A DNA stretch of 64,000 bases from Pseudomonas fluorescens (lineage in GTDB: Bacteria > Pseudomonadota > Gammaproteobacteria > Pseudomonadales > Pseudomonadaceae): assembly GCF_902497775.2 (NCBI RefSeq), contig NZ_OZ024668.1:4696326-4760325 (forward strand), in the 5' to 3' direction. The number at the start of each line of letters is the position of its first letter. The stretch's first letter is position 1. A program made the translations under genes and the position numbers. The notes under the pieces are model-generated. The model searched no databases. It had not been told where the DNA came from and saw nothing but the letters and a program-made list of their open reading frames with translations. This document shows positions 25,457-40,038 of the stretch, piece by piece.

Positions 25457-27181
25457 GTGTCTTCTCGCTTTCCAGCACGGCAACGTGGCGCCATCGGCTT
25501 GATCGCCGCCCTGACCCTGGGCATGGCCTTGTTGTTCGTGCTGCTGGTGGTCGACAGCGGGCGGTTGTACCTGGAGCAGCGCAAATTGCAGCGGGTAGTC
25601 GACATGGCGGCGCTGGAGGCGGTCAATGGCAAAGGCACCTGTCTGCCACCAGGACCCAATGCGCAAACCCTGGCAGTCCAGGCAGCGACTCGCAACGGTC
25701 ATAAACCAGGCGCCGAGCCCAGCCTGAAGGTCGAGTGCGGCAGCCTGCAAACCGGCGCTGGCAGCCTGCGGGTATTCACGGCCGATGCCAGCAAAGCCGA
25801 TGCCATACGCGTTACGGCGAGTTATACCCTGGACACCAGCATTGCCGCCGGTATTCGCTCGCTGGCGTCCTCTGCACCCTTCAGTTCCAGCACTCGCCTC
25901 AGCGCTCATGCGACCGCCGCCCAGGCCGGTCCGCCGTTGGCCCGTTTGAACATTCGCAGTACCTTGCTGAACATCGATTCGTCACGTTCGGCGCTGCTCA
26001 ACTCATTGATGAGCACATTGCTGGGCAGCCAGGTCAATTTGAGCCTGGCCCAGTGGCAGGGCTTGTTGCAGGCCAACGTCAACCTGCTCAATTACCTCGA
26101 TGCCCTGGCGATCAAGGCCCAGGTCACTGCAGGCAACTACACCGAACTGCTGGGCAAGACCCTCCAGCTCGGTGAAGCCCTGGACGTCATGGCCAAGGTG
26201 GCGGCGCAGAACAACCCGCTGGTGGATGTCAGCGGCCTGGCCCAGCTCAGTGTGCTGGCCCAGAACGCGGGGGGCATTGTCCTGGGGGATTTGCTCAATA
26301 TTCAGAATGGCGGCTCGAGTGCCGGGCTGGATGCGAAACTGCAAGCTTTGCAACTGGTTCAGGGCATGGTGCAACTGGCCAACAGCGCACACGGCGCCGA
26401 GGTCAGCCTGCCGGTCAGTTTGCTGGGCCTGGCCAATATCTCGACGCGGGTCAAGATCATCGAGCCACCGCAGTTTTCCGCGTTGGGCAATCCGGCCAAA
26501 GCCACGAGCAACGCAAAAGATCCCGAACAGATCTATGTTCGTACGGCCCAGACCCGCATTCTGATCAAGGTCGACCTCGGCCCCTTGCTCGGCGGTATCA
26601 ACTTGGGGATCATCAAGGTATTGCCCAATCCCAGCCTGGATGTGGGCCTGGAGGTTGCCAGTGCCAGCAGTCATGTGACCGGCTACAACTGCGCCTGCGC
26701 CGCCAGCAAAAGCCTGACCGTACGCAATGAAGCGGCGGCGGTGAAGGTGCTGATCGGCACGATCAACAGCAACAACTTCTTTTCCTCGACGCATCCGGTC
26801 GATGCCAGCCCTCTGGTCCTGCTCAGCGTGCTGGGGATCGATATCGGCCTGGGCGCGAACTCACCGGTTTTCAGCCAGAGCGAATCCTTCAGCTACCTCA
26901 AGCCACCCGAGCTTGAACAGGACTCGGCCAACCACCTGCTCAGCTCGAAAAACATCGTTTCCAGCGTACGCAACACCTTGCAGGGCCTGGAGCTGAGCCC
27001 GCAGATTCCGCTGGTCAGCCTGTTGCTCAATACGGTCTCAGGCCTGATCGGTGGTTTGCTGGGGGCTCTGCTCGACCCGATCATCAACAACCTGCTGACG
27101 CTGCTGGGTATCGATTTGAACCAGGTGGAGATCGGTGCCAACCTCAGTTGCCACAGCGGTCGCGCTCAACTGATGATCTGA
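25457..27181 (+). CDS. tadG: TadG-like pilus assembly protein
   Basis: This 574-residue protein has an N-terminal basic segment and membrane anchor of the Tad domain (RQRGAIGLIAALTLGMALLFVLLVVDSGRLYLEQRKLQRVVDMAA, split as anchor and helix). A long, Ser/Leu-rich extracytoplasmic part follows, with a Cys pair in YNCACAAS. TadG and related proteins are minor components of the Flp/Tad secretion machine. The GTG at 25457 is chosen because AAGGAG ends 5 nt before it; a TTG at 25409 has no site. It is convergent with pprA, overlapping its end by 16 nt. In P. aeruginosa tadG also lies in the Tad locus but in a different local order. Confidence 0.85.
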   Translation: MSSRFPARQRGAIGLIAALTLGMALLFVLLVVDSGRLYLEQRKLQRVVDMAALEAVNGKGTCLPPGPNAQTLAVQAATRNGHKPGAEPSLKVECGSLQTGAGSLRVFTADASKADAIRVTASYTLDTSIAAGIRSLASSAPFSSSTRLSAHATAAQAGPPLARLNIRSTLLNIDSSRSALLNSLMSTLLGSQVNLSLAQWQGLLQANVNLLNYLDALAIKAQVTAGNYTELLGKTLQLGEALDVMAKVAAQNNPLVDVSGLAQLSVLAQNAGGIVLGDLLNIQNGGSSAGLDAKLQALQLVQGMVQLANSAHGAEVSLPVSLLGLANISTRVKIIEPPQFSALGNPAKATSNAKDPEQIYVRTAQTRILIKVDLGPLLGGINLGIIKVLPNPSLDVGLEVASASSHVTGYNCACAASKSLTVRNEAAAVKVLIGTINSNNFFSSTHPVDASPLVLLSVLGIDIGLGANSPVFSQSESFSYLKPPELEQDSANHLLSSKNIVSSVRNTLQGLELSPQIPLVSLLLNTVSGLIGGLLGALLDPIINNLLTLLGIDLNQVEIGANLSCHSGRAQLMI

Positions 27182-29868
27182 GCCAGCGGCAACTCGATGC
27201 AGAACCGCGCACCGTGCTCGCCGTTTTCGACACTCAGGCAGCCACCCATGGTGTCGATGATGCCGTAGCTCACCGACAGCCCCAGACCAGTGCCGACGCC
27301 CACCGGCTTGGTGGTGAAGAACGGCTCGAAGATGCGCTCGAGCAAACGCGGCTCGATGCCGCCGCCGTTGTCCTCGACCAGCAAGCGCAGTTGCTGCGCA
27401 TCCCGCTCAAGACTCAGGGCGATCCACGGCTGCAGGTCGCGTTGCTGCTCGCGGCGGGCCAGCAGGGCATCGCGGGCGTTGACCAGCAGGTTGATCAGCA
27501 CCTGCTCCAGCTGATCCTGATGACCACGGACCTGCAGCTCGTGCTCAGGCACCTGCACCCGTAGCTCCACCCCCTTGCCACGCAGGCCGTCGGCCAGCAA
27601 CGACAGGGCCCCCTCCACCGCCTGCCAGGGCGCGAACAGTTGCTGCTCATGCTCAGAACGCCGACCGAATACGCGCAGGTGATCGACCACCTTCGAGGCG
27701 CGTAGCACCTGGGCGTCGATACGCCTGAGCTTGTCCTGCAGGTAGTCGACCTCGGCATTACCGTTTTCCAGGCGCTTGAGGGCGTTGACCACGGCCATGC
27801 GCATCACGTTGAGCGGCTGGTTGATCTCATGGGCAAGGCCGGTGGCCATTTCACCGAGGGTGGCCATTTTTGCGCTTTGCAGCAGTTGCTGCTGGGTGCG
27901 CCGTACTTGCGTGTTGTCGCGGCCCACCGCCTGGATTTCCTGCAACTGGCCATGCTCGTCGAACAGCCCACGATCGGACCACACCCACCAGGCATGCTCG
28001 CGCCCTGGCAGTTGCAGGCAGATCTCGGCGCTGCTGACCGGCTGCTCCGGGGTCAACCCCGCCAGGCGTTCGACAAAAGCCTCGCGCTGCGTCTCGGACA
28101 GCCATTGGCCGAGGTTCACTCCGGCCAGTTGTGCCGGTGCGCACTCCAGGTAATCGGCCAGCGGCTGGTTGCCGAATACCAGGCTCAGGTCCGGCCGGTA
28201 GCGGCAGATCATCGCTGGGGAATCCTCGACCAGCACCCGATAGCGCTCCTCGCTCTGACGCACTTTTTCCGCAGCTTCCGTAGCCTCGCTGATATCCAGC
28301 CAGATGCCCACCACCTCTACCGGCAAGCCCAGGTCATCGCGCAGCAGACGGGCTTCATCGAGTACCCAGTGATAGCCGCCGTGATGATCACGCAGGCGAT
28401 AACGGCTGCGGCTCTGGCCCAGTTGCAGCAGCGTGCGGGTACGTTCCAGCCACAGTGGCTGATCATCGGGGTGCAACCACTGCGCAGGCTGCAGCGCCTC
28501 GCCAGTCAGCGGCTGCCAGCCGAGCATCGGCAACAGGCTGGCACTGCAGAACTCGGTCAGCAACGCGCCTTCGGCGTAGCGCTGGATATAGATCACCGCC
28601 GGCGAACTGGCGATCAGGTTTTCCAGGCGCGCATGGGCAGCACTGGCCTGCAGCTGCTGCGCCTTGATGTCGCTGATGTCGAGCATGAAGCCCTGTACCC
28701 GGCGGTTGCCGCCGCTACCGTGCACCTGGCCGCACAAACGATACCCGCGCGGCTGCGTCTGGGTGTTGTGGTCGAGCAAGCGCAGGTTCAGTTGCAAGGC
28801 ACAGCCCTGGCGCTGCAGGTCGCCAAAGGCCAGCTGGGTGGCTTCGCGGTCCGCCGGGTGCACGCGGCTCAGCCATTGATTGAGCGTCAGCGCCGCAGGA
28901 ACACCCAGGCTCTCGGCCAGTGCCGGGTCCAGGTGCAGGTGCGGCTCGTCCAGGCGCCATTGCCACCAGCCAGCGCCCAACTGCAGTTGCAGGCTGTCCA
29001 GGCGTTCGCTTTGCTGATGCAGTTGGTGCGCAGCCAGGCGACCGAGCAGGGGTTCGACGAAGGCGGCGGCAACCAGCAGGGCATCCTCGGCTTGCAACAC
29101 CTCTTGCGGCTCGACACAGATCAGCCAGGCCTGATTGACCTGGCCTTGGGCAAAGGCCAACAGGTAAGTCGAAAGCCCCGGCAGCAAAGCCTGCAAGCCA
29201 GGCTCGCAGGCGCTGCTGAGCATGCCCGCCGGCAACTGGCGATCGAGCAACGGCGCGATCTGTTCGTCACGCGGCCAGTGCAGCGCGTCGCCGCTGCAGG
29301 CATAGGTCTGCCAGCCCTGCCCGGTTTGCACCAGCACCGCCGCGCACCGGGCTCGCCAGTGGCGTACCAGCCAGTTGAGCTGTTCTTCGGCCACCGCTTG
29401 CAGGCGTTCGATACTGCAGGCGCGCAATGCGCAGGCCAGGTGCGTGGTTAGGTGCTGCTGACGCTCGGCGGCCAGGGCCTGCTGGCGGTGCTGCAACAGG
29501 TCGCCGATATCAAACAGTTGCAGCAACCAGCCGCCATCGCTCTGGGCCAGCAACCAGCCTCGGGTGTGCAGGGTGTGGCCGCCGGCCGCCTTGAAATCCA
29601 GCTCCAGCGGCTGGCCCTGCCAGTCTGCCGGCTGGCCTTCGAGCACCAGCAGGCTGTAAGGCTGCACGTAGTCGTGCAGGCGCACGCCGGCCTGGGTCGG
29701 CAGCGCCAGCGCCGAGCGCAGCGGGCCGGCCAGGCGCAACACCCTGGCCGCGGCATCCAGCCACAATTGCAGGCCCACCGCCGGCACCTCGGGCCCTTGC
29801 GGCAAGGGTTCTTCGACCGGCGCCGCGCGCCCGCGCCAACGTTCGAACAGGCTATGCCCGCCACTCAC
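27166..29868 (-). CDS. pprA: PprA-like multi-PAS sensor histidine kinase
   Basis: This 900-residue kinase has no obvious membrane helices. A GAF-like N-terminal half is followed by three PAS/PAC units (about 280-400, 410-530 and 540-650), then the H box with His680 in GLAHEINQPLNVMR. After it come the N box INLLVNARDALL, the G1 box VEDNGGGIE and the F/G2 box FEPFFTTKPVGVGTGLGLSVSYG. It should phosphorylate PprB. Identification as PprA rests on the neighbourhood (pprB, fppA, tad genes) and size. Its ATG overlaps the stop of the TadE-like gene by 4 nt, so kinase and minor pilin share a message. The signal is unknown. Confidence 0.85.
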   Translation of the reverse strand: MSGGHSLFERWRGRAAPVEEPLPQGPEVPAVGLQLWLDAAARVLRLAGPLRSALALPTQAGVRLHDYVQPYSLLVLEGQPADWQGQPLELDFKAAGGHTLHTRGWLLAQSDGGWLLQLFDIGDLLQHRQQALAAERQQHLTTHLACALRACSIERLQAVAEEQLNWLVRHWRARCAAVLVQTGQGWQTYACSGDALHWPRDEQIAPLLDRQLPAGMLSSACEPGLQALLPGLSTYLLAFAQGQVNQAWLICVEPQEVLQAEDALLVAAAFVEPLLGRLAAHQLHQQSERLDSLQLQLGAGWWQWRLDEPHLHLDPALAESLGVPAALTLNQWLSRVHPADREATQLAFGDLQRQGCALQLNLRLLDHNTQTQPRGYRLCGQVHGSGGNRRVQGFMLDISDIKAQQLQASAAHARLENLIASSPAVIYIQRYAEGALLTEFCSASLLPMLGWQPLTGEALQPAQWLHPDDQPLWLERTRTLLQLGQSRSRYRLRDHHGGYHWVLDEARLLRDDLGLPVEVVGIWLDISEATEAAEKVRQSEERYRVLVEDSPAMICRYRPDLSLVFGNQPLADYLECAPAQLAGVNLGQWLSETQREAFVERLAGLTPEQPVSSAEICLQLPGREHAWWVWSDRGLFDEHGQLQEIQAVGRDNTQVRRTQQQLLQSAKMATLGEMATGLAHEINQPLNVMRMAVVNALKRLENGNAEVDYLQDKLRRIDAQVLRASKVVDHLRVFGRRSEHEQQLFAPWQAVEGALSLLADGLRGKGVELRVQVPEHELQVRGHQDQLEQVLINLLVNARDALLARREQQRDLQPWIALSLERDAQQLRLLVEDNGGGIEPRLLERIFEPFFTTKPVGVGTGLGLSVSYGIIDTMGGCLSVENGEHGARFCIELPLAQIIS

Positions 29869-30308
29869 AGTTGCAGACTCGCTTCAGCCTTGAGGCTGGC
29901 GGGCAGACGCGGTATCTCACCGATGCCCGGCAGGGTCAGTACCGGCACCACCGAGGTCAGTTTGGCTTTGGCGTAGTCGATCTTCACCGTCAGCAACTTG
30001 CCCGCCGTAAGGTTGATGCTGGCATCGCTGTTGACCTGGAAATTCAACGACGCCGGCATCCACGCCAGTTGCTCACCGAGCACGCGTTTGGCCAGAGCAT
30101 TGACATCCGCGCTGTAGGTGGCGCTGCCAGGATCCAGCGCCACGCAGCGGCGCACCGCTTCGCTGCTGGCCTGGTTGAACGACTGCAGCATCAGCATGGG
30201 CAGGCCGTAGCTGAGCACCCCATAGAAAACCGCGAAGAAGATCACGAATACCGCGACAAACTCGAGGGCTGCCGCACCTTTTTGCCGCTTGCACAGGCTT
30301 GCTTTCAT
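29865..30308 (-). CDS. tadE: TadE-like minor pseudopilin
   Basis: This 147-residue protein has a short basic leader ending in Gly11, followed by AAALEFVAVFVIFFAVFYGVL. The Gly and the Glu at +5 are the FppA/TadV-type processing signature of Tad pseudopilins. The mature part is one hydrophobic helix and a mainly beta periplasmic domain with one Cys. It should be a minor pilin or assembly initiator. The ATG at 30308 gives the shortest leader; an in-frame ATG at 30356 would add 16 hydrophobic residues and is less likely. Divergent from the prepilin peptidase gene and translationally coupled to pprA. Confidence 0.82.
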   Translation of the reverse strand: MKASLCKRQKGAAALEFVAVFVIFFAVFYGVLSYGLPMLMLQSFNQASSEAVRRCVALDPGSATYSADVNALAKRVLGEQLAWMPASLNFQVNSDASINLTAGKLLTVKIDYAKAKLTSVVPVLTLPGIGEIPRLPASLKAEASLQL

Positions 30309-30383
30309 GATCGCGTCTACCCTGACAGAGACACCTGAAAGACAGCATAGAATCATTCACCACAAAGGGATGGCCTTTCGCCA

Positions 30384-30854
30384 ATGCAAAGCATTGTTCT
30401 GCTGCTGTGGCTTGCCTTGTGCTCTGAACAAGATCTGCGCGAACGCCAGATCGCCAATACCCTGACCCTCGGCGCCGCCGCCTGCGCCCTGGCTTATCTG
30501 TTCGTTACCGGCCACACCTGGATTGGCGCCGATGCCAGCGAAGGTGGCTGGGCGCTGGCCATCGTCATGCTGCTGACCCTGCCAGGCTACATGCTCGGCC
30601 GCCTGGGGGCGGGCGATGTGAAATTGCTCGGGGCCCTGGCCCTGGCCACCGATCGCCTGCACCTGCTGGGCACCTTCATCGGTGCCGGGGTCGCGCTTGT
30701 CGCCTGGCTGTTCAGCCGTCGTTGGCTGTGGTCCCTTTTAAGTCAGAAGGTTAAGAACCGTCTGAAGCAGTTGAGTGAAGAGTCGTCAAAAAAGCAGCCC
30801 TTTGCGCCGTTCCTGCTGGTCGGTTTTCTCCTTGCTGCGGTCTGGATCAATTGA
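30384..30854 (+). CDS. fppA: FppA-type prepilin peptidase (A24A family)
   Basis: This 156-residue inner-membrane aspartic protease cleaves the leader of Flp and TadE-like prepilins. It is the short form without the N-methylation domain. Both catalytic Asp sites are visible: Asp17 in SEQDLRERQI and Asp78 in the GxGD motif GAGDVKLL. Four to five hydrophobic helices follow the expected layout, with a Lys/Ser-rich cytoplasmic piece near residues 120-137. It is divergent from the tadE-pprA unit and lies upstream of pprB in the same direction. Confidence 0.92.
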   Translation: MQSIVLLLWLALCSEQDLRERQIANTLTLGAAACALAYLFVTGHTWIGADASEGGWALAIVMLLTLPGYMLGRLGAGDVKLLGALALATDRLHLLGTFIGAGVALVAWLFSRRWLWSLLSQKVKNRLKQLSEESSKKQPFAPFLLVGFLLAAVWIN

Positions 30855-30875
30855 GCGAATGTTGGCTACAAAAGG

Positions 30876-30894
30876 ATGTACAAACCTTGTACAT
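30876..30894. promoter_or_regulatory. perfect palindrome upstream of pprB
   Basis: ATGTACA-N5-TGTACAT is a 19-bp sequence with perfect 7-bp arms, about 100 nt before the pprB start and 22 nt after the fppA stop. It looks like the site of a dimeric regulator. A looser relative (CTTGTA-N11-TACAAG) lies before gcbA at 53792. Confidence 0.55.
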
Positions 30895-30992
30895 AGTCAA
30901 AAAGTGCGTCTACTTTCTAGTGTGTGCCAGGAATGGATCCAGGCTCGGCCTGGCCTCGGGAACACCAAGGCGAATAGCGCAGGGAGTTGCAT

Positions 30993-31775
30993 GTGAGCAA
31001 GCCAGTCAGTGAGTTGAAGGTGCTGGTTGTGGACGACCAGCCACTGATCGTTGAAGAGCTGTGTGAGTTTCTCCAGGGCAGCGGCTACCGTTGCGTACCC
31101 TGCCACTCCAGTACCCAGGCCATCGAGCAGTTCAGCGTCGATCAGGAGATCGCGCTGGTGGTGTGCGACCTGCACATGCCCGACTGCGATGGCCTCGAAC
31201 TGATGCGCGCGCTCAAGGCCATTGCCGGGTCGCAGCGGCTGTTCGAAGCAATCATGCTCACCGGTCGCGCCAACAAGCAGGACGTGATCAGGGCACTGCG
31301 CGAAGGCTTTGCCGATTACTACCAGAAACCAGTCGACCTCAACGAGCTGCTTGAAGGCGTGCAACGCCAGGAAGTCGCCGTGCTGGAGCGGCGCAGGAGC
31401 TACCAGCACCTGGGTGACCTGAACCAGAAGCTGCAGTTTCTGGCCGAGTCGATCGACGACCTCTACCAGGACCTGGACAAAGCCCGTGGACTTGGAGCTC
31501 ACCGCCGCGCCACCGACATCAGTCCCGAAGCTGAAACCGACAACCTGCCGGCGCTGTTCGACAAGCTTTCACCGCGTCAGCTGGACGTGGCCAAACTGGT
31601 CAGCAAGGGCAAGACCAATTACCAGATCGCCTGCGAACTGGGCATCACCGAGAACACCGTGAAGCTCTACGTGTCCCAGGTGCTGCGCCTGACCCACATG
31701 CACAACCGCACCCAACTGGCGCTGGCGCTGTCTCCCATCTCCTCGCCCCTGCATCAGCGAGTTACGGCGCACTGA
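30993..31775 (+). CDS. pprB: PprB-like response regulator (REC-LuxR HTH)
   Basis: This 260-residue regulator has a receiver domain (VVDDQPL near residue 12, phospho-acceptor Asp59 in VVCDLHMPDCDG, Lys in YYQKPVD), a linker helix, and a C-terminal NarL/LuxR-type HTH (LSPRQLDVAKLVSKGKTNYQIACELGITENTVKLYVSQVL, residues about 190-230). In P. aeruginosa PprB switches on the Flp pilus genes and other surface adhesins. The GTG at 30993 is chosen because AGGGAG lies 6 nt upstream; an in-frame TTG two codons earlier is too close to it. A perfect palindrome lies upstream. It is convergent with tadC. Confidence 0.9.
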   Translation: MSKPVSELKVLVVDDQPLIVEELCEFLQGSGYRCVPCHSSTQAIEQFSVDQEIALVVCDLHMPDCDGLELMRALKAIAGSQRLFEAIMLTGRANKQDVIRALREGFADYYQKPVDLNELLEGVQRQEVAVLERRRSYQHLGDLNQKLQFLAESIDDLYQDLDKARGLGAHRRATDISPEAETDNLPALFDKLSPRQLDVAKLVSKGKTNYQIACELGITENTVKLYVSQVLRLTHMHNRTQLALALSPISSPLHQRVTAH

Positions 31776-31850
31776 GTGCAGCACCGCCCGGCTGACCTTC
31801 TCCCAGCGCCACTGCCAGGGGGCATCATTGTCTTCATGCCTTTCTCCCGC

Positions 31851-32738
31851 TCATGAACCCAATGCCCTGCCCAAGGCGCTAAGGCCGGGGCCGGCCAACA
31901 CGATCAGCAAGGCCGGAAACAAAAACACCATCATCACCATCGACATCTTCCCGGACATCTTCGAAATCCGTTCCTGCATGCGTGTCAGGCGACGGTCATC
32001 GAGCAGTTGCTTGAGCGCCAACAGCGACTTCATTGCGCCACCGCCCTGGGTCAGCAATTGCTGGAGAATCACGCAGGTGTCGCTGAACTCCTCGACGCTG
32101 AGCAACTGCGCGGTTTTCTCAAGCTCCGCAGCCAAGGCCAAACCGGAGTCGACCCGCAGCAGAATCACCCGTAACTCCTCGCTCAACACTGGCAACAGTT
32201 GTCGCGACTCCCGACTCAGAACACGCAAGGTTTGCTCCACCGCCAGGCCCGACTCGAAGAGAATCCTCAGCAAGGGTATGAAGGTCGAAACTTCGCCGGC
32301 AATCTGTTGCTGACGACGCGCAGCGGCCCTCGCCAGCAGGCGCTTGGGCAGCAGATAACCCACGCCCATGGCGCAAAACGGCAGTACCAGCCACGGTACC
32401 TGGCTATCGCGGCACAGGGTCTCCTGCAGCGCTACGCCCAAGCCCAGGGCCAGGAACGGCACGCCAACCTGGCAAGCGGCAAACAGCGCCCGCTGCCGAC
32501 TCCGCCGCCAGCCCATGCGGTCAAGCAGCAGACGGGTCTCGCTATCCAGATTCATCGAGCGCTGGCCCAGCCGGCTGCTACCGATCTGTTGCAGCCAGTT
32601 GCCCAAGCGGTTCTCACTGCCAAGCTGGCCCTGCAGACGCCGAGCGACCAGGTGCTGACGACGACGCTGGTGCAGCAACTGGCCTGCCAGCAAGACAAAT
32701 GCGGCGAAGAACATCAAGGCACAGAGCAACCAGGCCAT
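31851..32738 (-). CDS. tadC: TadC inner-membrane platform protein
   Basis: This 295-residue GspF/TadC-type membrane protein has an N-terminal helix, a pair of helices near residues 90-135, a cytoplasmic T2SSF domain (FIPLLRILFESGLAVEQTLRVLSRE ... FSDTCVILQQLLTQGGGAMKSLLALKQ) and a C-terminal helix (MVMMVFLFPALLIVLAGPGL). With TadB it forms the platform on which the ATPase TadA acts. It starts 1 nt after the tadB stop. In P. aeruginosa tadD lies downstream; here the next gene is the convergent pprB, so tadD is absent. Confidence 0.92.
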   Translation of the reverse strand: MAWLLCALMFFAAFVLLAGQLLHQRRRQHLVARRLQGQLGSENRLGNWLQQIGSSRLGQRSMNLDSETRLLLDRMGWRRSRQRALFAACQVGVPFLALGLGVALQETLCRDSQVPWLVLPFCAMGVGYLLPKRLLARAAARRQQQIAGEVSTFIPLLRILFESGLAVEQTLRVLSRESRQLLPVLSEELRVILLRVDSGLALAAELEKTAQLLSVEEFSDTCVILQQLLTQGGGAMKSLLALKQLLDDRRLTRMQERISKMSGKMSMVMMVFLFPALLIVLAGPGLSALGRALGS

Positions 32739-32739
32739 T

Positions 32740-33621
32740 TCAGATACTCCGTAACATACGCCACAACACCAGGCACCCCACCACTTGCAGGATAAAGGCG
32801 CCGAGCAGCAGTAACTGACCGTTGCCGTCCTGCCACATTGACAGCAAGTAGTTGGGGTTACTGATCAGAAAATAGCCGGCCATAGCCACCGGCAACAGGC
32901 CCAGGACAGTCGCGGTCATGCGGGTTTCACCGGTCATGGCGCGCAGTTGACGGCTACCCTGCTCGCGCTCGCGAATCAGCTTGATCAGGTTCTCCAGCAG
33001 TTCGCTGGCGTTGCCGCCGTAGCGATGATTGATACGCAGGCCCAATGCGAACAGGCGCAGCTCATCCTGCTCATACAGTTCGGCCAGGTCGCTCATGGCA
33101 TCGTCCAGGCTGACGCCCATCTGCACATTGCGCCGCACCCGCTGTAGAGCGCCATGCAAAGGGTCACGCGACGCATCGATGGCCCCCAGCACGGCATCGT
33201 TCAAGGTTCGCCCGGCCTTGAGGCTGCGCACACTGTGATCGAGCAACACCGGCAACTGTTCGATCATCCGCAGCAGCCGTCGGCGATAACGCCAGCCCAG
33301 GTACAACCAGATCAGCAACGGTGCAAGCAGCACCAGCCCGACGCCGGCTGCCCACCCCAGGATCCGGCCACACAGCAGCGCTGTCAGCAGGCCGATCACC
33401 AGCCATATCAGCAGCCGGTCATTGCGCCGCTCGATACCGGCACGCAGCAACAGGCGGTCCAGCCAGTCGCGGCTACTGGGCGTCAGCGCCGAGGTCTCCT
33501 GAACTTGGCCAAGACGCTGCAGGATCCGCTCCTCACCCGACTTGCGCATGCCGCTGTAGAACAAGCGCACCGATACCCCCAGCAACGCCAGGCAGATCAA
33601 GCCAAGTACCGCGGCAATCAC
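32740..33621 (-). CDS. tadB: TadB inner-membrane platform protein
   Basis: This 293-residue T2SSF-domain membrane protein has an N-terminal helix, two helices near residues 70-110, the cytoplasmic domain (LPVLLDHSVRSLKAGRTLNDAVLGAIDASRDPLHGAL ... GNASELLENLIKLIREREQGSRQLRAMTGE) and C-terminal helices. It pairs with TadC. The start is a GTG that overlaps the tadA stop by 4 nt, so translation is coupled. Confidence 0.92.
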   Translation of the reverse strand: MIAAVLGLICLALLGVSVRLFYSGMRKSGEERILQRLGQVQETSALTPSSRDWLDRLLLRAGIERRNDRLLIWLVIGLLTALLCGRILGWAAGVGLVLLAPLLIWLYLGWRYRRRLLRMIEQLPVLLDHSVRSLKAGRTLNDAVLGAIDASRDPLHGALQRVRRNVQMGVSLDDAMSDLAELYEQDELRLFALGLRINHRYGGNASELLENLIKLIREREQGSRQLRAMTGETRMTATVLGLLPVAMAGYFLISNPNYLLSMWQDGNGQLLLLGAFILQVVGCLVLWRMLRSI

Positions 33622-34886
33622 GGCTGCAGTTCCGAATAGTCGCGGCGCAGCTTGTCGCCGGCAGGGTTCGGCGCCTCCCGCAAGAAACCCTCGCCGTTGT
33701 GCCGATCGAGACGGAACAGGGTATTGGTGACGTACACATCATCGCGCACCCCGACTACCTCCAGCACCTCGCTGACACAGCGGCGGCCATCGGCCAGACG
33801 GGTCAATTGAATGACCACGTCCAGTGCCGCACAGATCATCTGGCGCAGGGTTTTCTCGGCCACCTGGCGGCCGGTCAGGCCGACCAGGGTTTCCAGACGC
33901 AGCAAGGCGTCCTGGGCGCTGTTGGCATGTACGGTACTCATTGAGCCGTCGTGACCGGTGTTCATCGCGGTGAGCACATCGAGCACTTCGACGCCACGGA
34001 TCTCACCGAGCAGAATGCGGTCGGGGCGCATCCTCAAGGCGTTGCGGATCAGCTCGCTGGCCTTGATCTCGCCATGCCCCTCGGCATTCGGCGGACGGGT
34101 TTCCAGGCGCACCACGTGAGGGTGATCGAGCTGCAGCTCGGCCACGTCCTCGATGGTCACCAGGCGCTCATGGGGCGTGATCAACTGGCTGAGGATATTC
34201 AGCAGGGTGGTCTTGCCGGTGCCGGTACCGCCACTGACCAGGATGTTGCAGCGTCGCGCCACCGCCAGCTGGATGAAGTCGAGAATGCCCTGGTCGATGG
34301 TCCGGGTGGCCAGCAGGTCGGCGCTCTTGAGCATGTCCTTGCGAAACTTGCGGATCGACAGGCACGGGCCGTCCAGCGCCACCGGCGGAATGATCGCGTT
34401 GACCCGGCTGCCGTCAGGCATACGCGCATCGACCATGGGTGACGATTCATCCAGGCGCCTGCCCAAGGGCGCGAGAATCCGTTGCATGACCCGCTCGACA
34501 TGGTGCGCATCGATAAAGCGCAGATCCGTGCGCTGCAGCACGCCGGCTCGTTCGATGAACACCCGGTGCGGACCGTTGACCAGGATTTCGGTGACGCTGG
34601 TATCGCGCAACAGCACTTCAAGCGGACCGAAGCCGGTCAGTTCGTCGACGATTTCCTCGGCCAGGCGTTCCATCTCGTAGCGCGACAGGGCCAGGTGCAA
34701 TCGGGCGATATAGTCGCCGACCTGCTCCACCACAAATTGCGCCAAGGCCGGGCGCGAGCCTTCGAGCAGGTTGCGCCCGCTATCCTCGATGGCGTCGATG
34801 ATGTAACGATGCAAGGCACGCTTGAGCCCTTGCGGGTCGGCCCCCAGGTTGTGCCGCGGGCCGCCGAACAGTTCGTCACCGCTCAT
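33618..34886 (-). CDS. tadA: TadA (CpaF-type) pilus assembly ATPase
   Basis: This 422-residue cytoplasmic hexameric secretion ATPase powers Flp pilus assembly. The N-terminal domain (to about 190) precedes the Walker A GGTGTGKTTLLN (Lys225), an Asp box (VTIEDVAELQL), Walker B with RMRPDRILLGEIRG and the His box NTGHDGSMSTVHANS. All key residues are intact. It overlaps tadZ upstream and tadB downstream by 4 nt each. Confidence 0.96.
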   Translation of the reverse strand: MSGDELFGGPRHNLGADPQGLKRALHRYIIDAIEDSGRNLLEGSRPALAQFVVEQVGDYIARLHLALSRYEMERLAEEIVDELTGFGPLEVLLRDTSVTEILVNGPHRVFIERAGVLQRTDLRFIDAHHVERVMQRILAPLGRRLDESSPMVDARMPDGSRVNAIIPPVALDGPCLSIRKFRKDMLKSADLLATRTIDQGILDFIQLAVARRCNILVSGGTGTGKTTLLNILSQLITPHERLVTIEDVAELQLDHPHVVRLETRPPNAEGHGEIKASELIRNALRMRPDRILLGEIRGVEVLDVLTAMNTGHDGSMSTVHANSAQDALLRLETLVGLTGRQVAEKTLRQMICAALDVVIQLTRLADGRRCVSEVLEVVGVRDDVYVTNTLFRLDRHNGEGFLREAPNPAGDKLRRDYSELQP

Positions 34887-36073
34887 TTATGCCCCCATAA
34901 CCGATTGAGCCAGTTGGCGCTGACCGCAGGGTTGCTCTCGGAGCGGCGCGCCAGCCGTTCACCGAGCGCTTTCAAATGTTGGGTGAGCTGCTCGCGCGGC
35001 GCCAGTTCGAACAAGGTCAGGCCCTGGTTCTTGGCATTCAGGCGCACCTCTGGGCTGTAGGGTAAAACCCGTAGAACCGGCAAGCCATAGCGCTTTCCCA
35101 GGGCTTCGGAGTCCGGTGCGACGCCGCGCAGGTAGCGGTCGACCAGCAGGCTGGCGTGTTCGAGTTTCATGCCCTTCTCGCGCCATTGAGTCAGTACCTC
35201 CAGGTTGCGCCGGCAATCGAGGACGTTCTGGTCGGTGTACCAGATCAGCTTGTCGCAATGGCTGACGAAGGTGCGCAAGGCTTCGCTGTCAGCCTGCCCG
35301 GCCAGGTTCACGACGATGTGCTGGAAATGCTGGCGCAAGGCGCTGAGCAGCATGTACAGCTCCGCCGCGCTGGTGCGCTCCAGCGGCTCGTCAGTCTCGG
35401 CGTAGGCCAGCAGGCGCAGGCCCGAGCTTTCACGCGTGAAGGCGCTGTCGATCAGGGTATTGTCGAGCCGGCGCAAGTGACGCAGGGCATCGCCGAAATG
35501 AAACGAGGCTTCCAGGCCGAGCAACGCCAGGCTGTCGCCACGAGGCACGCCAAGGTCCAGCAGCAACGTTTGCTGGCCGCTGGTTTGCACCACTCGCGCC
35601 ATATGGGTGGTCAGCAAGGCGCCATCAGCGGTGCACTGGGCGCCATAGAGTACCGTCAGCCCCCCAAGGCTGGGGTTGCTGGTTACTGGCGGCAGGCGTT
35701 TGCTCAAGCGCCGCACCAACCCTGCGACTTCACTGGAGCGTGAGCCATAGGCGACGAAGTCCCGCGCCCCGGCACGCATGGCATTGAGCACCAACTGGTT
35801 GTCCATGCCATCGCCCAGGGCAACGATTGCCAGCATCGGCTTGGCTTCCAGCACCCCCTCGATCAATGCGCACTGATTGACCACCTGCTCACGATCCAGC
35901 CCCACGAACACCAAACTGGCAAAGGTGACATCGACCAGCGCCAGCAACTCGTCAAGGCTGCCGCTGCCGGCGCCCACCACCTGCCCCATTGGCGCCAGCG
36001 CACCTTGCAACCACTGCAAGTCGCCATCGTTACGGGTGATGGCAAGGAAGGTCTGGCTCAGGCTTTCACTCAT
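34883..36073 (-). CDS. tadZ: TadZ-like (CpaE/MinD-superfamily) localisation protein
   Basis: This 396-residue protein has an N-terminal receiver-like domain without a clear phospho-acceptor pocket, followed by a MinD/ParA-like domain from about residue 135. The nucleotide loop reads VLYGAQCTADGALLTT instead of the classical KGGxGKT, so the P-loop lysine is missing. Later elements such as TLLLDLGVPRGDSLALLGL and QHIVVNLAGQ are recognisable. TadZ proteins place the Tad machine at its membrane site, and degenerate P-loops are known in the family. It is coupled to tadA (ATGA) and preceded by a short open frame at the position of rcpA. Confidence 0.87.
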   Translation of the reverse strand: MSESLSQTFLAITRNDGDLQWLQGALAPMGQVVGAGSGSLDELLALVDVTFASLVFVGLDREQVVNQCALIEGVLEAKPMLAIVALGDGMDNQLVLNAMRAGARDFVAYGSRSSEVAGLVRRLSKRLPPVTSNPSLGGLTVLYGAQCTADGALLTTHMARVVQTSGQQTLLLDLGVPRGDSLALLGLEASFHFGDALRHLRRLDNTLIDSAFTRESSGLRLLAYAETDEPLERTSAAELYMLLSALRQHFQHIVVNLAGQADSEALRTFVSHCDKLIWYTDQNVLDCRRNLEVLTQWREKGMKLEHASLLVDRYLRGVAPDSEALGKRYGLPVLRVLPYSPEVRLNAKNQGLTLFELAPREQLTQHLKALGERLARRSESNPAVSANWLNRLWGHK

Positions 36074-36245
36074 TGGGATAACCCGCTGCGACGTTCGAAG
36101 TCGCCGTTTTCGAGGAACAACCAGCCCCGGTTCGGGACGTCATGGCGCAACCCTTGGGTGCTGCCAGCGCCGTTGGCAACTGCGGCGCAGTGCACGGCAA
36201 GGCACAGAGCATCTGCTTGATTACCCGCTCGGAACGACTGCTCAT
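36066..36245 (-). CDS. 59-residue open frame at the position expected for rcpA
   Basis: Between rcpC and tadZ, where P. aeruginosa has the secretin gene rcpA, only about 190 bp remain. This frame starts at an ATG (36245) with CAAGGA about 9 nt upstream and overlaps the tadZ start by 8 nt. It encodes a peptide starting MSSRSERVIKQMLCAL and passing through LPTALAAPKG, which could be a degenerate signal sequence. A competing 61-codon frame (36070-36255) ends exactly at the tadZ start but has a badly spaced ribosome site. Neither shows secretin motifs. It may be an rcpA remnant, a small new gene, or only a translated leader. Confidence 0.4.
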   Translation of the reverse strand: MSSRSERVIKQMLCALPCTAPQLPTALAAPKGCAMTSRTGAGCSSKTATSNVAAGYPNE

Positions 36246-36265
36246 TGAAGGGCATCCTTGCTTGG

Positions 36266-37195
36266 TCAGGGAGTTGGCTGTCTGGCTTGATTTCCGCGGA
36301 TGATTTCTATGCCGCGCGACGGCGCGACGCTGGCCACCGGCTGGGCGGCGGGTAGCTGGGCAAGCTGACTGAAGCGATAGAGTTTGCGATTGGCGCTATC
36401 GACTTCCTTAGCACTGGCTTTGGGGTCCGCCCAGTAGCGGGCCAGGCGCTTCTCTTCGGCGCTGCGCACGGCCAGGCGCAAACTGCCGGCCTGGGCGGCA
36501 AGCAGCAAGCGGCTGGCCAGTGCCTCGGGAACGGCAAGCACTACCGTGCGCGCAGCATTTGACGGTTGCTGCGGATGACTCTTTTCATTCACTGGCGGCT
36601 GCGCGGGCTTGCCGTCATTGGTCAGGCCCAACTGTTCGCCGACACTGAGCAGACGTAGTGCGGGCAGTACCACTTGAGCCGATGCTTGCGGGTTGCGGGT
36701 CTCTTCGCGCAGAAACAGCAAGACATCGACATAATCGCCCGGACTCAACTGCCCGGCGACACCCACCACCTCATCCACCGCTACCGCCAGCGCTCGCTCA
36801 TGAGGATGGATCATCCGTGCCAGCGGGCCACCGGCTTCGAAGCTGCCCTGATCCAGCCAGGTTCCAGCACTCAACGCGCGCCAACTGCTGCGCCCGAGAA
36901 CTTGCTCAAGGGTCTGGAAACTGCCGGGCGCAGCCACCTGCAAGCGCTCTACCACCAGGTCGTCTGCCGTCAGCGGCACATACGCGGCAACGTCGCGACG
37001 CAACACCACCACCGGCTTGCGCAGTTCATCAGCGGCATCTTTTGCCACTTGCTCAACTGGCATCGGTACAGGTGCAGCGACAGATGCGGCAAGCGGTTCA
37101 CTGGGTGGCCGGCTTAGGACCAGGCCCCAGTAACCGGCCAGTAACGCACCGAGCAGAAAGAAGCCTGCGAGGATGATGGTAATGCGACTGCTCAT
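36266..37195 (-). CDS. rcpC: RcpC/CpaB pilus assembly protein
   Basis: This 309-residue protein has an N-terminal membrane anchor (IIILAGFFLLGALLAGYWGLVL region, residues 5-25), then an SAF domain (VVVLRRDVAAYVPLTADDLVVERL, residues about 62-85) and the RcpC/CpaB periplasmic part (LAVAVDEVVGVAGQLSPGDYVDVLLFL). In Tad systems it works with the secretin RcpA at the outer membrane or peptidoglycan. AGGAGG precedes the ATG. It is divergent from flp across a 317-bp spacer and heads the rcpC-tadZ-tadA-tadB-tadC operon. Confidence 0.92.
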   Translation of the reverse strand: MSSRITIILAGFFLLGALLAGYWGLVLSRPPSEPLAASVAAPVPMPVEQVAKDAADELRKPVVVLRRDVAAYVPLTADDLVVERLQVAAPGSFQTLEQVLGRSSWRALSAGTWLDQGSFEAGGPLARMIHPHERALAVAVDEVVGVAGQLSPGDYVDVLLFLREETRNPQASAQVVLPALRLLSVGEQLGLTNDGKPAQPPVNEKSHPQQPSNAARTVVLAVPEALASRLLLAAQAGSLRLAVRSAEEKRLARYWADPKASAKEVDSANRKLYRFSQLAQLPAAQPVASVAPSRGIEIIRGNQARQPTP

Positions 37196-37512
37196 GCCGA
37201 TCCTCCTTCCCCTCAGCGTTCTTGCGGCCCTTTATGTGAAATGGCCCACAGCACTGCAGTCGGAAACTACTATTTCGCTATTTGACGGTAGCGCAGCTAG
37301 GACAAAATGCCATTACCCGTCAGATTTTTTTCCGTCGCAAAACCGACAGCACCACAAAACAACAACTTATTGGCGTCGGCATCTGGTTATAACTTTAGTG
37401 TTAATGCCTTCTTACATTTGCCGAAGTATGACCCGTTGACGATGCTGTGATGGCAAAGGGGAATCATCAAATACCCCTGCCATCTGCGCCTCCCCGCGCA
37501 AGGAGAAATGCC
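37196..37512. promoter_or_regulatory. AT-rich divergent control region of rcpC and flp
   Basis: This 317-bp spacer is clearly richer in A+T than the genes around it and must hold the two divergent promoters of the pilus genes. An inverted pair TGACGG (37283-37288) and CCGTCA (37317-37322), extended as TGACGGTA and TTACCCGTCA, could be a regulator site, for example for PprB. TATAAC at 37388-37393 is a possible -10 for flp, but no good -35 precedes it. No further gene is seen. Confidence 0.5.
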
Positions 37513-37728
37513 ATGCGTCTTTCCCGAATCCTCAAGAGCTGCAAAGAATTCTTCTATCGCAAGGATGGTGCCTCAGGCATCGAGTACGCGATTGTCGCGG
37601 CGATGGTCGCGGTAGCGTTGACGGCGTTCATTACACCCATTTCCACAAACGTCTCTGGCGTCATGACCAAAGTTGAAAACGCGCTAAAAGCCACGCCAGC
37701 GCCGAGCGGTGGTACGGGTACCAATTGA
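37513..37728 (+). CDS. flp: Flp-type major pilin
   Basis: This 71-residue prepilin has a 19-residue leader ending in Gly19, followed by ASGIEYAIVAAMVAVALTAF. The Gly at -1 with Glu at +5 and Tyr at +6 is the diagnostic Flp processing motif. The mature subunit is about 52 residues with a short Thr/Gly/Pro-rich tail, the normal size for type IVb Flp pilins. AAGGAG precedes the ATG. It is the substrate of FppA and the fibre subunit of the Tad machine encoded on the other strand. A receiver-only regulator follows 53 nt downstream. Confidence 0.93.
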   Translation: MRLSRILKSCKEFFYRKDGASGIEYAIVAAMVAVALTAFITPISTNVSGVMTKVENALKATPAPSGGTGTN

Positions 37729-37781
37729 CGAATGGATTCACGCTGATGTACTGAACAACCCGCCGATCACAGGACTGCCCT

Positions 37782-38189
37782 ATGCCGACCTCTTCCCCCC
37801 GTCAACAGTTGCTCCTGGTGGATGACGAAGAGGACGCCTTGCTGGAACTTGCCGAATTGCTGGAGGGTGAGGGGTTTTGCTGTCACACGGCTACCTCGGT
37901 CAAACTCGCCCTGCAACAGCTCACCCGCCACCCGGACGTGGCCCTGGTCATCACTGACCTGCGGATGCCGGAGGAAAGCGGCATATCACTGATCAAGCGC
38001 CTGCGCGAGCACACCTCACGCCAGCACCTGCCGGTGATTGTCACCTCCGGGCATGCCGACATGGACGACATCAGCGACCTGCTGCGCCTGCAGGTGCTGG
38101 ACCTGTTCCGCAAGCCGATCTACCACACTCGCCTGCTGGAAACCCTGGACAACCTGTTCCCCAAACCGCGGATGCAGTTGGTGCAATGA
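37782..38189 (+). CDS. single-domain response regulator
   Basis: This 135-residue protein is a receiver domain only: DDEED near residue 14, the phospho-acceptor Asp59 in VITDLRMPEESG, VTSGHAD with the conserved Thr/Ser, and FRKPIYH with the Lys. There is no output domain, so it acts by protein contact or as a phosphate sink. It lies 53 nt after flp in the same direction with its own AGGA site and is probably co-transcribed with the pilin gene. Cross-talk with PprA is a natural suggestion but unproven. I do not recall this gene in the P. aeruginosa Tad locus. Confidence 0.88.
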   Translation: MPTSSPRQQLLLVDDEEDALLELAELLEGEGFCCHTATSVKLALQQLTRHPDVALVITDLRMPEESGISLIKRLREHTSRQHLPVIVTSGHADMDDISDLLRLQVLDLFRKPIYHTRLLETLDNLFPKPRMQLVQ

Positions 38190-38272: not shown

Positions 38273-39940
38273 TCACAGCTGCAAACTGAAACTCAAACTC
38301 ACCCGCGGTTCCCGGTCAAAGCTGTCGAGGGCGACATCCGACAGTGGCTTGGCCAGCTCCAGCGCCAGGTTATAGAAACGCCCATCACCAATACGCAGCC
38401 CCAACGCCACTGAACTCAAGTGTGCATCGCGCAGGTCCACTTCATTGAACCAGGTGCGCGCAGTATCCAGCACGGCATAGGGTTGCAGCAGCTTCACCCA
38501 GCGGCCATCGCCGTTGAAACTGTAATTCACCTCATATGCCAGACCCCAGCCCTTGTCACCCAGGGCCTGGTCGGCGGGATAGCCGCGGGCAAAGCTCTGC
38601 CCGCCAAACACCACCCGCTCGCTGTCGGGCAGGCTGTCGCCACTCCAGTACAAAGCCGCCGACGCCACGCCCTGCCAGTTGCCAAACAGGCGGTCGCTCT
38701 GCAACCCGGACAGGCGCAAGCGCAGAAAATCCAGGTCGAAGTCGCTGTTGGTTTTCGCCCCCAGGTAATCCAGGCCCTGGTAGGCCCCACCACTGACAAT
38801 CCGCAGTTGCTCGGCATCGGCCTTGCGCCACTCACCTTCAAAGCCCAACGCGCGCACGTCAGTGCGGTTGCTCAGGCGCAGGGGTGCACCGACCGCGCGA
38901 TACACGACATCGTCATTGACCATGTAGAAGCGCGCGGCAACGTTGAGCGACTCGCCGGGCGCGGCCAGCAGCACCTGACTGAGGCCGGCCGAGAAACGGT
39001 CATTCTCGCGATGGGCCTTGAGCTGGGTGCCATCGCCGAGCAGCACCTGGGCACTGGGGTCGCTTTCGTAACGCGACGCCGACAGGTGCAGCTGGCTGCC
39101 CTGATCGTCCAGGTACTGGGAGTAGTCCAGGCGAAAGTAGCTTTCGTGATCTTCCCCGCGCGGCGCTAAAGCGGTGACACTGAACTGTTCAGCGAGCGCC
39201 GTCTGCGCATTGCTGTTCACCGTGAGCAATGCCTGGGGGTCATCGCGGGTGCCGTCGGTGGCAGTCATTGTGGCGTTGAAAGGCCGACGCGTGGCCTCGA
39301 CGATCAGCCGGCTGGCGCCATTGGCGGCGTTCGCCGGCGACAAGCGCGCCTGCACGCTGAAACCCGGCAGACGGCTCATCAGCGCGACATAACGCTCGAA
39401 GGTGGCGCGAGTCAGTGGCCGCTCGGCCTTGAGCCTGCCCACCAGCTTTTCCACATAGGCCGCCGCCGGGCCAACTTCACCGTGCAATTGCAGATCGTCG
39501 ATGTAGCCCTCGACCAGCACCACCCGCACCCGGCCATCGGCGAAATCCTGCTCAGGCAGATAGGCATGGGACAGCAGGTAGCCGTCCTGCTGGTAGCGCT
39601 GGGTCAGGCGCTGGGTGGCATCCATCAGCTCGCCCAGGCTGACTTCGCGGTTGACCAGGCTCTGATAGTTGTCGCGCAGGTCACTCAACGGATAGATGCT
39701 GCCGCCTTCGAAGCGCACCTTGCGCAGGAAGATCCGCGTGCCGCGCAACAACGGCTGGGCCTGGGTCACCGGAATCGGCACCTGCACCCCCGGATTGCTC
39801 GGCCTATAGGCATCGGCCGGCAAGTTGGGGGCCGGCAGGTTTCGCTCGATTTCGTGGCTGTCGAGAAAGCGCGGCAGGGGTTCGCTATTGGCAACGCTCG
39901 CCCAGGACAACCCAACAATCGCGACAGCCAACGCACGCAT
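38273..39940 (-). CDS. orphan TpsB/ShlB-family outer-membrane transporter
   Basis: This 555-residue protein has a signal peptide (MRALAVAIVGLSWASVANS). A ShlB-type POTRA unit follows (LRKVRFEGGSIYPLSDLR ... RYQQDGYLLSHAYLPEQDFADGRVRVVLVEGYI, split around residues 65-150), a second POTRA, and a 16-strand-type barrel with the conserved loop motif in SFARGYPADQALG. These are two-partner secretion pores that export one large TpsA adhesin or toxin. No TpsA gene is present nearby. The last residue is Leu rather than the usual aromatic. The ATG at 39940 has GGAG upstream; an in-frame ATG four codons earlier is weaker. It lies 98 nt downstream of pbpC. Confidence 0.88.
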   Translation of the reverse strand: MRALAVAIVGLSWASVANSEPLPRFLDSHEIERNLPAPNLPADAYRPSNPGVQVPIPVTQAQPLLRGTRIFLRKVRFEGGSIYPLSDLRDNYQSLVNREVSLGELMDATQRLTQRYQQDGYLLSHAYLPEQDFADGRVRVVLVEGYIDDLQLHGEVGPAAAYVEKLVGRLKAERPLTRATFERYVALMSRLPGFSVQARLSPANAANGASRLIVEATRRPFNATMTATDGTRDDPQALLTVNSNAQTALAEQFSVTALAPRGEDHESYFRLDYSQYLDDQGSQLHLSASRYESDPSAQVLLGDGTQLKAHRENDRFSAGLSQVLLAAPGESLNVAARFYMVNDDVVYRAVGAPLRLSNRTDVRALGFEGEWRKADAEQLRIVSGGAYQGLDYLGAKTNSDFDLDFLRLRLSGLQSDRLFGNWQGVASAALYWSGDSLPDSERVVFGGQSFARGYPADQALGDKGWGLAYEVNYSFNGDGRWVKLLQPYAVLDTARTWFNEVDLRDAHLSSVALGLRIGDGRFYNLALELAKPLSDVALDSFDREPRVSLSFSLQL

Positions 39941-40038
39941 CGGACACTCCATGATCCCGAACAGTACGAAGCCGCCAGAACGGCGGCCTCGTCAATTCAA
40001 GCGTAGGTGCTGGCTCCGGCATCGTCTAATCGGCGGCG

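Follow-up and report, generated by a model that had tools for sequence, protein, structure and literature searches.

The Tad1 locus and the scars of rcpA and tadD

The window, i.e., the whole stretch of 64,000 nucleotides that was analysed, contains at 25.4-38.2 kb a Tad pilus locus of the P. aeruginosa type (Tad1), in which only rcpA and tadD are absent among the usual parts. The locus begins with tadG (25457..27181, forward strand; Pfam Tad and Tad_C), a sensor histidine kinase gene which by its position we take to be pprA (27166..29868, reverse strand; PAS, HisKA and HATPase_c), the tadF/tadE pseudopilin gene (29865..30308, reverse strand; Pfam TadE), the prepilin peptidase gene fppA (30384..30854, forward strand; Peptidase_A24) and the response regulator gene pprB (30993..31775, forward strand; Response_reg and GerE). 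These are followed, all on the reverse strand, by tadC (31851..32738; T2SSF), tadB (32740..33621; T2SSF), the ATPase gene tadA (33618..34886; T2SSE), tadZ (34883..36073; TadZ_N) and rcpC (36266..37195; RcpC and SAF), the last encoding the alignment-ring protein, which matches the solved RcpC (9gzr) with E 9.8e-46. The flp pilin gene (37513..37728, forward strand) has the processing motif GASGIEY, and beside it lies a gene for a receiver-domain protein (37782..38189, forward strand; Response_reg), which adjoins flp in the other Tad1 loci read as well. The first-pass annotation had stated that the cytoplasmic, membrane and pilin parts are present, and the Pfam search bore this out, finding TadG, PprA, TadE/F, FppA, PprB, TadC, TadB, TadA, TadZ and RcpC where that annotation had placed them. 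The core of a Tad system, with TadA, TadB/TadC, TadZ, RcpC, a prepilin peptidase, Flp with its motif and TadE/TadG-like proteins, is in place, and the locus' own RcpA and TadD are deleted, with scars left. An outer-membrane transporter of the ShlB/FhaC type adjoins Tad1 (38273-39952, reverse strand).

The gap between rcpC and tadZ, from which rcpA had been reported missing, measures 195 bp in the window vs. 1276 bp in G096, and the gap between tadC and pprB, where tadD had not been found next to tadC, measures 81 bp vs. 1014 bp. The genome G096 (locus L063) served as the reference for the scars, as the nearest genome read in which rcpA is kept (TadZ 94% identical). The rcpA scar (36070..36245, reverse strand) aligns to the rcpA region of G096 with 86% and 84% identity, and keeps the first approx. 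100 and the last approx. 85 bases of the gene, with the signal-peptide part retained at its start. The two remnants sit in different frames and meet at an 11-base near-repeat (36145-36155), circa 1.08 kb being deleted. In the tadD scar (31776..31850, reverse strand, by alignment to the same genome) the start codon at 31837 and a few bases are left and the rest is deleted, with an 18-base match (31791-31808) to G096 sequence beyond tadD. Both genes were once present in Tad1 and were removed by local deletions, and since remnants of the lost genes lie in both gaps, their absence is real and no slip of annotation.

Tad1 loci without rcpA (orphaned loci) number 19 among those read, and remnants of rcpA were found in 16 of them (flanking the deletion on both sides in 10 loci and on a single side in 6, the other 3 having none), which, together with the single-contig source genome, rules out an assembly gap. 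The 10 two-sided scars represent about seven junction types (G000, the source genome; G007; G102; G351; G006; G183 and G083; G337, G135 and G349). The genome G007 is a close relative of the source genome (TadZ1 99% and RcpA 99% identical), and the scars of these two may come from one common deletion event.

The single RcpA-TadD pair and its distribution in the genus

The source genome consists of one contig of 5.97 Mb and is 100% complete. A search of the whole genome with the PF13629 profile (Tad-type/CpaC-type secretin) gave a single match, at 2.443 Mb, by which an rcpA that was merely overlooked is ruled out. The match lies in a second, complete Tad block (Tad2; G000:C1:2.431-2.443 Mb), circa 2.28 Mb from Tad1, containing two flp genes, a prepilin peptidase, an AAA protein, RcpC2, TadG2, two TadE, TadZ2, TadA2, TadB2 and TadC2, with RcpA and the TadD lipoprotein encoded on the strand opposite to the rest of the block. 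The identity of Tad1 and Tad2 proteins in local alignments is 23% for TadZ, 26% for TadB, 24% for TadC, 27% for RcpC, 27% for FppA and 52% for TadA. The second-block RcpA carries PF13629 and PF00263 (the CpaC-type N domain and the secretin domain), ends in GLSK and matches the solved P. aeruginosa RcpA (8odn chain A) with E 4.9e-135, while TadD, a TPR lipoprotein with a lipobox-like LMLSGC (judged by eye), matches the solved TadD (8odn chain B) with E 1.4e-43. Judged by its sequence, the pair belongs to the Tad1 family. The description of the locus as being without its secretin therefore stands for the locus and falls for the genome, where one RcpA-TadD pair is present elsewhere; the first-pass annotation had itself named such a pair in a second Tad block as the finding that would dissolve the puzzle. 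The PF00263 secretin profile has five other matches in the genome. A weak secretin match (E 2.8e-9) lies at G000:C1:3301819-3302133 (L006, L010), in a frame of 264 residues.

In the first draw of 249 genomes of the genus, where Tad1 was scored by a strong TadZ1 match and Tad2 by TadZ2, Tad1 was present in 140 genomes, Tad2 in 49 and both in 13. Tad1 without a linked rcpA was found in 11 of the 13 genomes with Tad2 vs. 0 of the 127 without it (Fisher p 1.2e-14, without correction for kinship). In G076, counted among the 127, rcpA is seen only in part, at the end of a contig. The larger draw comprised 398 genomes, 76 of them with Tad2; the 27 new ones were tested for Tad1 and RcpA, and 10 of these have Tad1, which brings the genomes with both loci to 23. 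For these 10 last-added genomes RcpA was sought with the protein P0002 at E 1e-30 and not with PF13629, a search that still found distant native secretins.

Two machines with only one RcpA per genome, on either locus, were seen in 22 of the 23 two-locus genomes. In 19 of the 23, Tad1 lacks rcpA and the single RcpA lies away from Tad1; it was read beside Tad2 in 18, and the rcpA-tadD pair of G007 occupies a separate contig of 4,096 bases and presumably also has its place beside Tad2. The comparison across related strains that had been proposed for this locus thus gave 18 further genomes of the genus without rcpA in Tad1. The reciprocal state is found in three genomes (G244, G256 and G344), where Tad1 carries the single RcpA and neither a secretin nor TadD was found in the Tad2 locus; the genes beyond TadC2 were inspected in G244 and G256, with neither of the two among them. 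Only G070, of the 23, has an RcpA-TadD pair on each locus (L062 and L083); its two pairs are 72% (RcpA) and 65% (TadD) identical, and this genome is possibly an intermediate state. Additionally, 23 of the 127 Tad1-only genomes have one or two further PF13629 matches and retain rcpA, by which the idea that any extra CpaC-type secretin triggers the loss is ruled out. The extra secretins of G017, G024, G119 and G130 (the four compared of these 23 genomes) are 38-41% identical to the RcpA of the pair (P0002), and the further secretins beside an intact Tad1 perhaps represent a third Tad type.

The comparison of the 50 Tad1 loci read was made under the headings co-loss, INDEPENDENCE and selection. 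The gene rcpA is present in 31 of the 50 loci and the identical 31 carry tadD, while in the 19 loci without rcpA, tadD is also absent from all 18 that have sequence beyond tadC (the contig of G083 stops 147 bases after tadC and was left out of this count). The two genes, although not adjacent, were lost jointly in every locus where both could be read. On the Tad1 tree, which is a gene tree made by a quick method and with 27 Tad1-only rows hand-picked from 127, many as close relatives, 9 changes of state are counted, of which at least 8 fall on supported branches; in 8 independent pairs, an average of 7 differ as predicted, 0 differ in the opposite direction and 1 does not differ (median p 0.016). 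A tadD match is lacking in two of the 73 named rcpA-bearing Tad1 loci: in L187 the contig ends, and in L208 (P. proteolytica DSM 15321), which has rcpA, both tadC and tadD are unmatched in the DNA covered.

The secretin of Tad2 and the 32-bp element

A different, native secretin of circa 500 residues is present in 24 of the 76 Tad2 genomes, near TadZ2 in 23 of them and on another contig in G123, and Tad1 (by TadZ1) was found in none of these 24. The native secretin gene lies between RcpC2 and TadG2 in 13 of 13 loci read, and in the four native-secretin loci checked a lipoprotein-like frame of 342-348 residues follows TadC2, the one tested being a TPR protein. The other 37 Tad2 loci read have the Tad1-type pair (32), neither gene (3) or a contig end near TadC2 (2; the Tad2 contigs of G035 and G173 stop near tadC), and the 29 Tad2 genomes with neither Tad1 nor a native secretin were read in part. 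In the RcpA tree, Tad2 RcpA is nested among Tad1 RcpA, in two Tad2 clades, and one single Tad2 RcpA clade is not rejected (RcpA and TadD together, p-AU 0.24); the AU test grouping the short-RcpA Tad2 loci was set aside because G244 and G035 had been left outside the group. The native-secretin loci (n = 13) take two positions on the Tad2 backbone tree (a quick tree with SH-aLRT only), which forces at least two changes and makes repeated replacement probable: the Tad1 pair probably took the place of the own pair of Tad2 on two or more occasions, through one or two relocations.

A 32-bp element upstream of rcpC (37279..37310, reverse strand) is repeated upstream of the second-block rcpA. It begins circa 115 bases upstream of rcpC1 and is conserved in the majority of the 50 Tad1 loci. 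A k-mer inspection of the element preceded the profile test, in which the profile was trained on rcpC1 upstreams alone and the controls were 2-mer shuffles of one strand. This profile exceeds the 99% shuffle level upstream of rcpA2 in 21 of 32 Tad2 loci (G183 is marginal), and the corresponding counts are 0/32 for flp1, 0/49 for flp2, 0/47 for tadF, 0/47 for fppA1, 0/50 for fppA2, 0/31 for in-place rcpA1, 0/31 for tadD1 and 1/47 for pprB upstreams. Over 259,696 positions (the window and four stretches of its own genome) the two best profile matches are those at rcpC1 and rcpA2. Genome-wide, a joint pattern allowing up to 3 mismatches was matched at two sites, and as it was derived from both copies, it is informative only as to the absence of a third. 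At the relocated rcpA, 12 of 32 loci have either no such element or a marginal one; they make up one Tad2 subclade, to which 8 or 9 of the 19 orphaned genomes belong, and this counts against a general role. We regard the element as a candidate control element common to rcpC1 and rcpA2; that PprB could be its regulator is a guess.

A proposed port common to two pilus machines

The best explanation of these results, which we hold to be likely (probability of approx. 0.8), is that a single secretin-pilotin port serves both Tad machines and that rcpA and tadD of Tad1 were deleted, having become dispensable because the second Tad locus carries a same-family RcpA-TadD pair. The explanation is built on what was observed in scars, the single remaining pair, loss recurring with Tad2, purifying selection and a 32-bp element in common, and with it the second pair would serve the pilus of the window. 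Among the options raised at the first pass, a secretin supplied by another locus is thus the one favoured, with the pair lying in a second Tad block, while a periplasmic fibre or a different exit route gained no support, as in the 140 Tad1 genomes the loss occurs only with a same-family RcpA elsewhere. According to this explanation, TadD would bring RcpA to the outer membrane via the C-terminal tail of RcpA, the RcpA ring would dock through its N-domain on RcpC1 or RcpC2, and the Flp1 and Flp2 fibres would both exit through RcpA rings of one family, with the motor, platform, pilins, peptidase and alignment ring remaining separate for each machine. RcpA tails end in GLS followed by Q, K or R in 63 of 63 read, and the literature describes this end as the one bound by TadD (PMC10499894) and RcpC as a periplasmic ring docking on the RcpA N-domain (PMC12307814). 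RcpC1 and RcpC2 both match the solved RcpC and have a similar C-terminal [IV]RG strand motif. What speaks against sharing is that RcpC1 and RcpC2 are only 27% identical, that the element at the relocated rcpA is absent or marginal in the 12 loci mentioned and that G070 retains both pairs, and the conserved Tad1 genes could serve something besides a surface fibre.

If Tad1 were decaying, the second pilus would have made it superfluous and rcpA and tadD would simply be the first genes lost, in agreement with a loss that accompanies a second Tad system and with scars that are plain deletions. We consider this unlikely, since 19 of 19 orphaned loci have RcpC, TadZ, TadA, TadB, TadC, TadF, FppA and PprB at nearly full length, along with a candidate Flp that bears the processing motif. 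Among Tad1 pairs, dN/dS is 0.070-0.169 for orphaned (n = 9), 0.055-0.174 for mixed (n = 7) and 0.051-0.175 for rcpA-bearing ones (n = 9), and among Tad2 pairs it is 0.046-0.089 for secretin-less (n = 3) and 0.055-0.245 for secretin-bearing ones (n = 8); the pairs have genomes in common and so are not independent. Inside clades with a common scar dN/dS is as low as in intact pairs, which also argues against decay: the orphaned Tad1 genes are still under purifying selection. Decay would also have to account for two non-adjacent genes that vanish together when nothing else does, for the three genomes in which Tad2, at the low secretin-less values given above, is the pair-less system, and for the Tad1-only genomes that retain rcpA beside a further PF13629 secretin.

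Export of the Tad1 pilus via an unrelated secretin, e.g., that of type II secretion or PilQ, for which the five other PF00263 matches would offer material, is very improbable, since the loss of rcpA tracks Tad2, other genomes with PilQ- or GspD-sized matches keep rcpA, and RcpC1 is of the kind whose docking partner is RcpA (PMC12307814). We give equally little credence to a relocated pair that serves Tad1 alone and merely neighbours a Tad2 exiting otherwise: membership of the pair in the Tad1 family, the rcpC element that often accompanies it and its position mostly on the strand opposite to Tad2 would fit this, but the genome has no second PF13629 secretin, the native slot (between RcpC2 and TadG2) holds no secretin in pair-bearing Tad2 loci, and the pair is found with Tad2 also in Tad1-less genomes (e.g., G237, G112, G010 and G021).

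Going beyond the shared port of these two machines, we lean slightly towards a more general form, in which the secretin-pilotin pair would be a plug-in port of the outer membrane. Whenever two Tad machines of distant kinship came together in a cell, usually just one such port would be left, located on either of the loci and in many cases bearing the control element of the first machine, and it would serve both, so that the pili would compete or be coordinated through the same channels. If sharing is true, the completeness of a pilus or secretion locus is not to be judged locus by locus, as an orphaned locus can function, and the genus offers a natural repeated experiment in which secretin and pilotin are interchangeable and the alignment ring, motor and platform are not. 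It would also make the specificity between secretin and alignment ring testable, since two RcpC proteins of such low identity would accept one RcpA, and it raises the question of how the common ports would be divided between the two pili of a cell.

Filamentous phage CTX uses EpsD, the type II secretin of Vibrio cholerae. One secretin then serves two systems, as proposed here, but the phage borrows a host channel and the two systems are not paralogous pilus machines. In P. aeruginosa, RcpA and TadD serve one Tad machine and their genes are not an adjacent pair. The P. aeruginosa RcpA-TadD complex (8odn; PMC10499894) is matched by RcpA and TadD of the second block. In Sinorhizobium meliloti, the flp-2 Tad cluster is without secretin genes and a separate secretin/pilotin set, Locus 3, has been proposed for it (PMC10934763), so that, as in Tad1, a secretin-less cluster would be served from elsewhere on the replicon; unlike here, the other Tad cluster keeps its own secretin, and two machines with one port are not proposed in the available part of that paper.

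Two Flp/Tad types, A and B, are already known in Pseudomonas, and P. chlororaphis subsp. aurantiaca DSM 19603 was reported in 2020 to have both, with type A lacking rcpA (PMC7716237). The missing type A genes have homologues in type B, and interchangeability between the pili was suggested from this one strain (PMC7716237). That paper gives rcpA, tadC and PA4298 as missing, whereas in the 19 loci of this study tadC is present and tadD missing (G083 unreadable for the latter). It concerns one strain, and the scars, the recurrence, the reciprocal state, the selection test and the control element come from the present analysis. In the openly accessible literature searched, we recognised no other report of recurrence, reciprocity, scars or a shared element.

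Two further frames lie near the relocated rcpA of the source genome. One of 1,428 residues (G000:C1:2443687-2447973, forward strand) adjoins rcpA and is divergent from it, and a transposase-like frame (G000:C1:2449088-2449987, reverse strand), presumably of the IS3 type as judged by eye, lies circa 6 kb beyond it.
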